Shown piece after piece: positions 17,631 through 23,600 of a stretch of DNA of 64,000 nucleotides. Location of the stretch: the NCBI GenBank assembly GCA_903813345.2, contig CAIIXF020000003.1, positions 32,489,151 to 32,553,150 of the forward strand, in the 5' to 3' direction. Every line of letters starts with the position of its first letter. Within the stretch, counting starts at the first letter, position 1. The notes beneath the pieces were generated by a model. That model was not told the DNA's origin, did not search any database, and saw only the letters and a list, made by a program, of their open reading frames with translations. The position numbers and the translations under genes were made by a program. The DNA comes from Owenia fusiformis (Eukaryota > Annelida > Polychaeta > Sabellida > Oweniidae).

Positions 17631-20600
17631 TGGGATTGTATCAACCCTAAGAAAAAGGCAAAGAAGAAAAGCTACAAGAACTCAGGGGTGGTCCATTGTA
17701 CATCATGTAAGGTAAGAGTATTCTGAAGTTCAATTTAACTTTTTGAGAGCTACTTTTCAACTGTTGCTATTATCTAAAGGCTTTGCATATGTACACAAAG
17801 GGTCAAGGTCACACTTGTTGAGTGTCATCATCATACAAGGTCAAGGTCACTAAGAGTTCAAGGTCTCGGGTCACAGTCTCTTGTGTCGGCACAATTGAGG
17901 CTATAAGCCTTATAGAATCAGACTACATTATTGGATAACATTTACAAGATTTTGACAATATCTACCTTTCTTAATGAGATTTCTGAAAACAGAGAATGAA
18001 ATCACGGGCTGAGGGCTGATGTGAAAAAGTCAGTCCACCTCTGACCGAAGTTATGACCCCTCATTCCCCAGACAAGTGCACTACCACTGAGCAACAGGAG
18101 CAATCTTCGGATGATTTCAATTTTTTTCATTCATATTATAAAATCAGTTATATTAGTCTCAACATCTATAACAGCCTCATCGTTTCAATTTTTCAGGTGG
18201 TGAAGGTTCATTCATTCCTGGATTACATATTTGGTGGACTCCAAATCAACATAACTGTAAGTTAGAATTATACTGAATTATATTGTATTCCATTGCAATG
18301 TATTATTTTATTGTATTGCATTATATTGTATTAAGTTGTATTGTTTTGCATTGTATTGTATTGAATTGTATTGTTTTGCATTGTATTGTTTTGTATTGTA
18401 TTGTATTTTATTGTCTTGTATCATATTAGAAAGCAAGAGGGCAAAACTTTATTTTTTCTCTCAAATTCTCAATATAAGATTATTATCTACTATAAAACAT
18501 ATACAGTAATTGCCTCAAATTAGATGAAATGTGTAATCACATAGTTTATTTTCCATTTTACATGGACCACCATCATTCACTTGGTTTCTTACAGTTATTG
18601 AGTGCAACCAAGACTGAGCATGTACCTTATTTTTAAACAAGTTTTAACAAAAAGTAAGGGAGGATATGCTTAAGATCGTAATTCATTTATTGCAGCCTCA
18701 ATAAACTTGATATTTTGAATATATGTTTCAGTTTGGCATTGACTTTACTGCTTCCAATGGTAACCCAGCTACCCCCCAGTCATTACATTATATCAACCCA
18801 TATGAACCAAATGAATACATGAAAGCAATTCAAGCTGTAGGGAATGTAATACAGGATTATGACAGGTAATTTCAAGTAAAATGAGACACAAAGAGAAACT
18901 TTAAGTTTTGGAAATTGTTGTTTTGGCAGTCACTGTTTTGCAATATTGAACTAAAGTCCCCAAAATTTTATTTCTTATTAAGAGAAAAACACATAACCTA
19001 AATTAGTCTTAACATTAATGATTCCATTCTATATCACCTCAAAAATTGGAAACATCATTCTAGCCACATTTTCTTTGTCTGGCATTTGGCACCAATGGTT
19101 TCATAGCCATTAACAGGTGGTGACATTTTGCCTGTAATGCCATATATAGTGTATAAATGTTGCAAGACCTGAATAACAAACTTGTCTGTTTTGCATTGCA
19201 GTGATAAGATGTTCCCCTGTCTTGGCTTTGGTGCAAGAGTTCCCCCAAAGATGGAAGTCTCACATGAGTTTGCCTGCAACTTCAACCTCTCTAATCCTTT
19301 CTGTGCAGGTAAGTTACCATTAAGGTAGGAAGAGTTGAGTCTCACATGAGTTTGCCTGCAACTTCAACCTCTCTAATCCTTTCTGTGCTGGTAAGTTACC
19401 ATTAAGGTAGGCAGAGTTGAGTCTCACATGAGTTTGCCTGTAACTTCAACCTCTCAAATCCTTTCTGTGCAGGTAAGTTACTATTAAGGTTGGCAGAGTT
19501 GAGTCTCACATGAGTTTGCCTGCAACTTCAACCTCTCAAATCCTTTCTGTGCTGGTAAGTTACCATTAAGGTAGGCAGAGTTGAGTCTCACATGAGTTTG
19601 CCTGCAACTTCAACCTCTCTAATCCTTTCTGTGCTGGTAAGTTACCATTAAGGTAGGCAGAGTTGAGTCTCACATGAGTTTGCCTGCAACTTCAACCTCT
19701 CTAATCCTTTCTGTGCTGGTAAGTTACCATTAAGGTAGGCAGAGTTGAGTCTCACATGAGTTTGCCTGCAATTTAAACCTCTCAAATCCTTTCTGTGCTG
19801 GTAAGTTACCATTAAGGTAGGCAGAGTTGAGTCTCACATGAGTTTGCCTGCAACTTCAACCTCTCAAATCCTTTCTGTGCTGGTAAGTTACCATTAAGGT
19901 AGGCAGAGTTGAGTCTCACATGAGTTTGCCTGCAACTTCAACCTCTCAAATCCTTTCTGTGCTGGTAAGTTACCATTAAGGTAGGCAGAGTTGAGTCTCA
20001 CATGAGTTTGCCTGCAACTTCAACCTCTCAAATCCTTTCTGTGCTGGTAAGTTACCATTAAGGTAGGCAGAGTTGAGTCTCACATGAGTTTGCCTGCAAC
20101 TTCAACCTCTCTAATCCTTTCTGTGCTGGTAAGTTACCATTAAGGTAGGCAGAGTTGAGTCTCACATGAGTTTGCCTGCAACTTCAACCTCTCTAATCCT
20201 TTCTGTGCTGGTAAGTTACCATTAAGGTAGGCAGAGTTGAGTCTCACATGAGTTTGCCTGTAACTTCAACCTCTCAGATCCTTTCTGTGCAGGTAAGTTA
20301 CTATTAAGGTTGGCAGAGTTGAGTCTCACATGAGTTTGCCTGTAACTTCAACCTCTCAGATCCTTTCTGTGCAGGTAAGTTACTATTAAGGTTGGCAGAG
20401 TTGAGTCTCACATGAGTTTGCCTGCAACTTCAACCTCTCTAATCCTTTCTGTGCTGGTTAGTTACCATTAAGGTAGGCAGAGTTGAGTCTCACATGAGTT
20501 TGCCTGTAACTTCAACCTCTCAAATCCTTTCTGTGCAGGTAAGTTACTATTAAGGTTGGAAGAGTTGAGTCTCACATGAGTTTGCCTGCAACTTCAACCT

Positions 20601-23600
20601 CTCAAATCCTTTCTGTGCTGGTAAGTTACCATTAAGGTAGGCAGAGTTGAGTCTCACATGAGTTTGCCTGCAACTTCAACCTCTCTAATCCTTTCTGTGC
20701 TGGTAAGTTACCATTAAGGTAGGCAGAGTTGAGTCTCACATGAGTTTGCCTGCAACTTCAACCTCTCTAATCCTTTCTGTGCTGGTAAGTTACCATTAAG
20801 GTAGGCAGAGTTGAGTCTCACATGAGTTTGCCTGTAACTTCAACCTCTCAGATCCTTTCTGTGCAGGTAAGTTACTATTAAGGTAGGCAGAGTCGAGTCT
20901 CACATGAGTTTGCCTGCAACTTCAACCTCTCTAATCCTTTCTGTGCTGGTAAGTTACCATTAAGGTAGGCAGAGTTGAGTCTCACATGAGTTTGCCTGTA
21001 ACTTCAACCTCTCAGATCCTTTCTGTGCAGGTAAGTTACTATTAAGGTTGGCAGAGTTGAGTCTCACATGAGTTTGCCTGCAACTTCAACCTCTCAGATC
21101 CTTTCTGTGCAGGTAAGTTACCATTAAGGTAGGCAGAGTTGAGTCTCACATGAGTTTGCCTGCAATTTAAACCTCTCAAATCCTTTCTGTGCTGGTAAGT
21201 TACCATTAAGGTAGGCAGAGTTGAGTCTCACATGAGTTTGCCTGCAACTTCAACCTCTCTAATCCTTTCTGTGCAGGTAAGTTACCATTAAGGTAGGCAG
21301 AGTTGAGTCTCACATGAGTTTGCCTGCAACTTCAACCTCTCAAATCCTTTCTTTGCTGGTAAGTTACCATTAAGGTAGGAAGAGTTGAGTCTCACATGAG
21401 TTTGCCTGCAACTTCAACCTCTCTAATCCTTTCTGTGCTGGTAAGTTACCATTAAGGTAGGCAGAGTTGAGTCTCACATGAGTTTGCCTGCAATTTAAAC
21501 CTCTCAAATCCTTTCTGTGCTGGTAAGTTACCATTAAGGTAGGCAGAGTTGAGTCTCACATGAGTTTGCCTGCAACTTCAACCTCTCAAATCCTTTCTTT
21601 GCTGGTAAGTTACCATTAAGGTAGGCGGGTGGAAGTGAAAAGCTTGGAGATATTAACAGAAACTTTTTAAAATTAAGAATTCAATCTTTTACCTTACAAC
21701 AACAGTATTATATCATTGTACAACAATGGCTTTATAAATTCTTCCCTGGTTAATTGACCAATGAATGACCTTTTTACATTTTGGATTGCATATGATGGTC
21801 CACCTTAATATTGCATAGACTCTTACGCAAAATCATGACAATATATTGATAATGGTGAGGGAACCTTACAATTGCAAGTGGAATTGAAGGCGTATTCTTG
21901 GGGTATGCAGAATTTTTAAAATCAGTTCTTTTATGATTTTTAATTTCTAAGAAGATATTGTATGATATAATTTGTGTTGGATGAAAACGTAAGATCAATG
22001 CCATTTTTATCGTACCTAATAAAGGTACGATATTGTCGTCAGCTTGACGGACAGGCAGCGGGCGGGGGCGGGCGGGCGGCGTCTCACTTTTCAACTTGTC
22101 TATAGGTTTCCAGCCAAACCATTTGACAGATTCATCTGAAATTTTCAGGAATGTTTCTACGTATCAAAGTTATTTATCTGTAGTACCAATTGTTTATATT
22201 GAATATATGACATTTTTTACAGGTATCCAAGGTGTTGTACAGACATATACAGCATGTATATCTCAAGTACAACTATATGGACCAACCAATGCATCTCCTG
22301 TTATATACCATGTTGTTTATGTTGAATATATGACATTTGTTACAGGTGTCCAAGGTGTGGTACAGACATATACATCATGTATATCTCAAGTACAACTATA
22401 TGGACCAACCAATGCATCTCCTGTTATATACCATGTTGTTTATGTTGAATATATGACATTTGTTACAGGAATCCAATGTGTGGTACAGACATATACAGCA
22501 TGTATATCTCAAGTACAACTATATGGACCAACCAATGCATCTCCTGTTATATACCATGTTGTTTATGTTGAATATATGACATTTGTTACAGGTATCCAAG
22601 GTGTGGTACAGACATATACAGCATGTATATCTCAAGTACAACTATATGGACCAACCAATGCATCTCCTGTTATATACCATGTTGTTTATGTTGAATATAT
22701 GACATTTGTTACAGGTATCCAAGGTGTGGTACAGACATATACATCATGTATATCTCAAGTACAACTATATGGACCAACCAATGCATCTCCTGTTATATAC
22801 CATGTTGTTTATGTTGAATATATGACATTTGTTACAGGTATCCAAGGTGTGGTACAGACATATACATCATGTATATCTCAAGTACAACTATATGGACCAA
22901 CCAATGCATCTCCTGTTATATACCATGTTGTTTATGTTGAATATATGACATTTGTTACAGGTATCCAAGGTGTGGTACAGACATATACAGCATGTATATC
23001 TCAAGTACAACTATATGGACCAACCAATGCATCTCCTGTTATATACCATGTTGCTCAGTTTGCTGCTGCAGCCCAAAAGGAGCCTGGTGCAAAGGTAAAA
23101 GTAGATTTACTTGTGTTTATCATTTGGGTAAATGCACATTTATGGAATCTTAAGCTAAATATAAGAGAACTTGAATATTTTCCCAATTATTTGGAACCTT
23201 TGTATGTTGAGCATTGTGGTTTTCTCTTTTGCAGTCATATTATAAATTAAGCTATTCCAACATTTAAATTGTGCTATTCAAACATTTCAATAAATGTGTG
23301 CTTTTGTTTTATTCCAGTCATATTATGTGCTATTCCTACATTTAAATTGTGTGTTATACTTTTATTCCAGTCATATTGCGTGATATTCCTACATTTTAAT
23401 TGTATGCTATTGCTTTAATCCAATATTGTGTGCTATTCCATTTCAATTGTGTGCTATTCTTTATTCCAGTCTTATTGTGTGCTCTTGCTGATCACAGATG
23501 GCGTCATCACAGATATGAACGAGACCCGCCAGGCAATAGTTTATGCCTCCCACCTTCCCATGTCACTCATCATAGTGGGTGTCGGCAACGCAGATTTCAC

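Follow-up and report, generated by a model that had tools for sequence, protein, structure and literature searches.

Tandem arrays of splice junctions at both ends of a copine intron in Owenia fusiformis, and donor arrays at other genes

A copine intron bordered by copies of its own junctions

The 64,000-nucleotide stretch of the annelid Owenia fusiformis analyzed here (GenBank assembly GCA_903813345.2, contig CAIIXF020000003.1, here C3, positions 32,489,151 to 32,553,150 of the forward strand; hereafter, the window) contains the 3' part of a copine gene, one intron of which carries a tandem array of its donor junction at one end (array A) and a tandem array of its acceptor junction at the other (array B). 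About 85% of this 3652-nt intron is array A or array B, that is, copies of the intron's own two junctions, and a third array (array C) lies over the acceptor of the following exon. Arrays were called with Tandem Repeats Finder (TRF), and array A was also traced by unit comparison and a donor walk. The features are as follows (window positions; a slash within a motif marks the splice border):

17631-24723, + strand: traced 3' part of the copine gene, eight exons
17631-17711, 18197-18256, 18732-18865, 19202-19308, + strand: first four traced exons
19202-19308, + strand: copine vWA exon, 107 nt, preceded by AG and followed by the donor CAG/GTAAGT; its last 52-53 nt seed array A
19257-21627, + strand: array A, exon end plus donor, 29 x 82 bp
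19309-22960, + strand: 3652-nt copine intron, assuming use of donor 1 and the last array B acceptor
22190-23053, + strand: array B, acceptor plus start of the next exon, 7.0 x 123 bp, 98% matches (TRF)
22961-23094, + strand: next exon of copine (134 nt), starting at the last array B acceptor
23270-23483, + strand: array C, over the acceptor of the following exon, 4.1 x 53 bp, 77% matches (TRF)
23470-23610, + strand: copine exon with its acceptor inside array C
22961-23094, 23470-23610, 24031-24126, 24619 to the stop codon at 24721-24723, + strand: last four traced exons

With donor 1 and the last array B acceptor, the eight exons, all with GT/AG ends, join in one frame into a product that ends naturally and matches the Copine domain (PF07002, E 1.9e-87, positions 1-217/218). 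The initial annotation had allowed for a pseudogene; judged by this frame and this match, the gene reads as intact where traced. The exon at 17631 resembles what we take to be the end of a C2B domain, and a scan for C2 motifs found no further copine C2 exons upstream. Three of the 15 traced splice sites fall in arrays, a post hoc observation for which no p-value is given.

Array A was called by TRF at 19256-21626 (period 82, 28.9 copies, 96% matches, 0% indels, score 4350), and the donor walk recovered 29 donors with all 28 spacings equal to 82, in agreement with the indel-free array of 29 copies first annotated. Its unit joins 52-53 bp of copine exon end to 29-30 bp of intron, again as annotated. 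In unit 1 the exonic stretch is the true exon end. With donor 1 in use, the remainder of the array, including units 2-29, is intronic. The 28 full units differ from their consensus at 0-5 positions each, and unit 29 departs after position 74. These head-to-tail, variant units lie within the size range of minisatellites, or variable number tandem repeats (VNTRs), about 10-100 bp. The array A unit was also searched for across the 498-Mb assembly; the search, which ignores very frequent words and scores top candidates only, returned 29 matches, every one inside array A.

The annotation had placed the extra donors in near-native context. This holds for the GT, kept in 29 of 29 donors, and less well for the triplet before it, which is the native CAG in 9 of 29 copies and CTG in 20, leaving most decoy donors one base weaker. 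Compared with the consensus CAGGTAAGT, the first donor matches at 9 of 9 positions and the later ones at 8.25 on average, with eight of the 28 decoys equal to the native donor. A recursive splice site is defined by a polypyrimidine tract, CAG/GTAAGT and a zero-length exon; in array A the AG directly before the donor is not kept in the copies, 20 of 29 reading CTG/GT. The internal variants were confirmed (CAATTTAAAC in units 7, 24 and 28; CTTTGCTGG in units 26 and 29). They had been taken to indicate multi-unit unequal exchange, a reading that found no significant support: the longest repeated block in the order of unit types is three units, a length reached in 34% of 5000 shuffles, and the observed number of repeated unit triples was reached in 5% of 5000 shuffles.

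Tandem arrays are prone to mis-assembly and the copy number comes from one assembly, which could favor the reading as an assembly artefact or a dead gene. We consider both extremely improbable: the units carry distinct variant sets, unlike the stuttering of one unit, the frame is intact where traced, and similar arrays occur elsewhere in the assembly.

Whereas the annotated description of array A stands, it had overlooked arrays B and C and the arrays of other genes. Array B carries the acceptor end of the same intron whose donor end carries array A, its unit consisting of 33 nt of intron end with the acceptor and 90 nt of the next exon. Splicing to its last acceptor gives the 134-nt exon 22961-23094, and splicing to its first acceptor gives an 872-nt exon starting at 22223. 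Acceptor 23470 sits in the decayed array C; over 31 positions, its context shares 25, 23 and 21 with the upstream array C copies and no more than 20 with any other part of the window. The genome is rich in tandem arrays, of which 35 (TRF, merged by hand) cover ~7.2 kb of the window. A 33-bp unit in two copies at 28342-28408 (88% matches) looks coding in one frame by eye.

The intron interrupts the copine sequence at FCA-G/GIQG in phase 1. Among copine paralogues, L009 and the single-frame L011 lack this intron, and L010 and L012 have introns at other positions and phases nearby. These differences and the CAG/GT junction would suit an intermediate of intron gain, in which the intron was born from tandem duplication of an AGGT-bearing segment. 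Read by eye, however, neither end of the intron repeats sequence of the opposite exon beyond the splice signals, whereas ends that copy the flanking exons are the mark of such a gain; loss in the paralogues is equally possible, and we regard this origin as highly improbable.

Donor arrays at other genes

An assembly-wide search for AGGTAAGT in triplets spaced 60-90 bp yielded 517 matches (364+153). We fetched all arrays distinguishable among the matches listed (26 arrays in 25 loci). In nine of these 25 loci the array starts at an exon end for which a family or structure was matched (E 1e-4 or better):

L015: HSP70, over the Pfam cut-off
L018: Cys-loop receptor, over the Pfam cut-off
L019: C-type lectin, over the Pfam cut-off
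L025: GFO_IDH, over the Pfam cut-off
L035: calpain, over the Pfam cut-off
L036: MOV-10, over the Pfam cut-off
L017: COR-B, below the Pfam cut-off
L023: Sec5, below the Pfam cut-off
L034: DNAJC3, family or structure match

Another seven resemble exon ends, judged only by open frame or by eye (L014, L020, L021, L022, L024, L028, L032), and nine were not counted as exonic (L016, L026, L027, L029, L030, L031, L033, L037, and L013, the last with an ambiguous frame). L036 (C5:1751400-1757700) contains two exon-end donor arrays 3.5 kb apart (72 bp with 15 donors; 63 bp with 8 donors) that probably belong to one MOV-10-like gene, the exon of the second having an AAA_11 match below the cut-off (8.3e-5). 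Three more arrays (L038-L040) came from the single AGGTAAGT sites listed for the first stretch of contig 1: L038 (C1:441000-444900) is a tetraspanin-like exon end (Pfam E 0.016, below the cut-off) with 18 copies of 54 bp, L040 is an exon of Muted (E 1.6e-15), and L039 has no match. Across 21 arrays, from loci mostly chosen for repeated AGGTAAGT, 271 donors were traced and 254 of them keep GT. Of the 20 arrays with a traced spacing, seven have one divisible by three, about the third expected by chance. The near-identical, non-coding-looking donor-word arrays L029 and L030 (C4:11836700-11839300 and 11885600-11888200) lie ~49 kb apart and are likely a segmental duplication.

At 60-90 bp spacing, the reversed control word formed 382 triplets (211+171). 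It has more single sites than AGGTAAGT (33,930 vs. 19,150), and triplets per single site are thus commoner for AGGTAAGT (517/19,150) than for the control (382/33,930). At 30-60 bp spacing, the counts were 423+139 for AGGTAAGT and 193+159 for the control, with about half of the AGGTAAGT matches listed supplied by one 59-bp array of dozens of units (C3:3279807-3282705). Matches inside one array are not independent, and we therefore claim the presence of these arrays, not their enrichment. The single control sites listed include a pair spaced by 16 bp and a triple spaced by 131 bp. On contig 1 beyond its first stretch, only two further 30-60 bp arrays are among the matches listed; that first stretch is thus unusually rich, and we do not extrapolate from it.

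The acceptor word TTTNCAGG formed 1156 triplets (559+597) vs. 515 (224+291) for its control, as raw counts and not per single site. Ten of the 25 acceptor-word loci fetched look exonic by eye, and none of their ten peptides scored above the Pfam cut-off (PP2C, E 0.0053, 16.9 vs. 20.3 bits), so that an exonic nature of acceptor arrays outside copine is weakly supported.

Reading frames and splice-site choice

Read-through of the first copine donor reaches a TAG 17 nt into the intron, ahead of donor 2, which places every downstream donor behind a stop, as initially annotated. Among 18 phase-assigned arrays (at least two traced donors, copine included), an in-frame stop precedes donor 2 in 16, and the same is true of 10 of the 11 arrays with a family or structure match. 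In most arrays, the exon-proximal donor is thus the only one predicted to fit an intact protein. Most later donors come nearly as near to the consensus as the first donor does and, with GT kept throughout array A, splicing would have to favor one copine donor among 29, as had been noted.

To this we add a pooled comparison of the exon-derived parts of 18 arrays (script-fitted; L024, L032 and L039 were left out for a single traced donor, irregular spacing and an unclear frame, respectively). Variable sites number 66/288, 54/284 and 73/288 at the first, second and third codon positions, and no significant coding constraint on the extra copies was found in this test (p 0.19). Synonymous and non-synonymous variable sites number 58 and 130, raw counts without a neutral expectation.

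We propose, with a probability of roughly 0.7, that array A is a border-spanning minisatellite whose extra copies are made nearly neutral intron by exon-proximal splicing. A tandem duplication over the exon/intron border would have seeded the array in a working copine gene, and unequal exchange or slippage would have expanded it. A duplication over a donor keeps the outermost, first copy on the exon, so that all extra copies land in the intron; after a duplication over an acceptor, the last copy would stay on the exon, array B being the mirror case. Splicing would take donor 1 in unit 1, and the remaining 28 donors would be ignored or their products would decay. Donor 1 may be favored because it alone gives a short exon with the upstream acceptor and because it is transcribed first. 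The competing copine exon lengths (107 vs. 189-2403 nt on the donor side; 134 vs. 257-872 nt on the acceptor side) suit exon definition, whereas transcription order, although it too would favor donor 1, would give the last array B acceptor no advantage. If splicing uses the exon-proximal copy, as we infer, such duplications would be nearly neutral and free to expand.

Several points weigh against this proposal. Splice-site use is predicted here from sequence, and tests with duplicated identical 5' splice sites have often favored the intron-proximal copy, which would predict use of unit 29. The frames were picked from the open stretch upstream, partly by eye; in phase-2 exons followed by GTAA or GTGA the stop is automatic, making 5 of the 16 stops trivial; and two arrays are open past donor 2, L035 (two later donors) and L038, where read-through stays open past all 17 later copies and the array could therefore be translated. 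The third codon position is the most variable in the pooled test, although not significantly. Array A taken by itself has seven variable exon-derived sites, five at third positions and four synonymous, which hints at coding constraint but on too few sites to weigh.

The donor array could instead act as a regulatory switch, with partial use of downstream donors and decay of the stop-bearing products tuning the copine level. The complete retention of GT, the eight decoys equal to the native donor and the early stop would all fit such a function. Against it, the pooled test gave no significant constraint on the copies and unrelated genes bear such arrays, and we judge the switch improbable.

Array B behaves differently with respect to frame. 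Its frame is open through all seven copies, all six acceptor intervals being in frame, and the 872-nt exon from its first acceptor joins its neighbors without a stop, adding six 41-residue repeats; in the resulting 531-aa copine product, Pfam gives seven Copine stretches. The tract of unit 1 is also more pyrimidine-rich (TTTTTTACAG vs. TTTGTTACAG). These features would be expected if the intron-proximal acceptor (22223), or a mixture, were used and the vWA domain gained up to six repeats, in which case the donor and acceptor arrays would be resolved differently. An open 123-bp unit is, however, not rare by chance. In a frame test of array B and nine other acceptor loci (L056 was left out), only array B and L045 were open and in frame throughout (2/10), L057 was so in 4 of 10 intervals and the other seven never. 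Moreover, six inserts would break up the compact vWA fold of copines, and the exon changes among copies are both silent and replacing (codons read by eye). We therefore consider a coding array B unlikely.

Wider meaning and known systems

Choice among identical splice sites has been studied mostly through a few engineered duplications. The arrays described here set 3 to 29 near-identical donors in a row within their native exon context, for example, at HSP70, Sec5, DNAJC3 and calpain matches, and are thus a natural test of how cells choose among near-identical splice sites, in which junction counts along the arrays would directly measure exon-proximal preference. They also suggest a harmless way for introns to lengthen. 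As a tentative generalization, in which we have less than even confidence, this lineage may repeatedly turn splice junctions into minisatellites at both intron ends and at dozens of genes (extrapolated from a partial listing), with introns lengthening as they accumulate copies of their own splice sites. Strict use of the exon-proximal site would make this tolerable, and in-frame arrays such as copine array B and the tetraspanin-like L038 would offer a route to new coding repeats.

Searches of the PMC literature listed no title or abstract that deals with genome-wide arrays of splice junctions, a weak negative limited to that library, and none that describes one intron arrayed at both its ends, with real exon in the units and the pattern recurring at several genes. 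The kind itself is already known from single genes, through IFI6 and cases of intron gain.

In earthworm metallothionein genes, the available passages of the source describe long minisatellite arrays in the first intron (PMC12783039). These resemble the copine case as intronic minisatellites of an invertebrate gene and differ in that the same passages mention no splice junction within the unit. For intron gain by tandem duplication, PMC4974935 lists the ATP2A1 case of Hellsten, SPOG_01682 in fission yeast, with multiple copies of a 24-bp segment, and a potato RdRp duplication that spans an intron-exon border. As in copine, a splice-bearing segment was duplicated in tandem; there a new intron arose, whereas the copine intron consists mostly of copies of its own two ends and gives no sign of a new intron.

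The unit of the minisatellite in human IFI6, an interferon-induced gene, is reportedly a 12-bp repeat. The statement in the initial annotation that no described gene has the copine arrangement was too strong, since this IFI6/6-16 minisatellite is described as giving multiple splice donor sites (PMC4526556; also cited in PMC2572611), with "two downstream repeat units" serving as donors and three mRNAs resulting (PMC4526556). As in IFI6, the copine array lies at an exon's donor, the real donor being inside array A and every unit having a donor-like site. The later donors are used in IFI6, whereas in copine they lie behind a stop, and the sequence argues against productive use of several array A donors. 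The copine case differs further in its 82-bp unit with 52-53 bp of real exon, in the arraying of the acceptor too, and in the presence of donor arrays at other genes.

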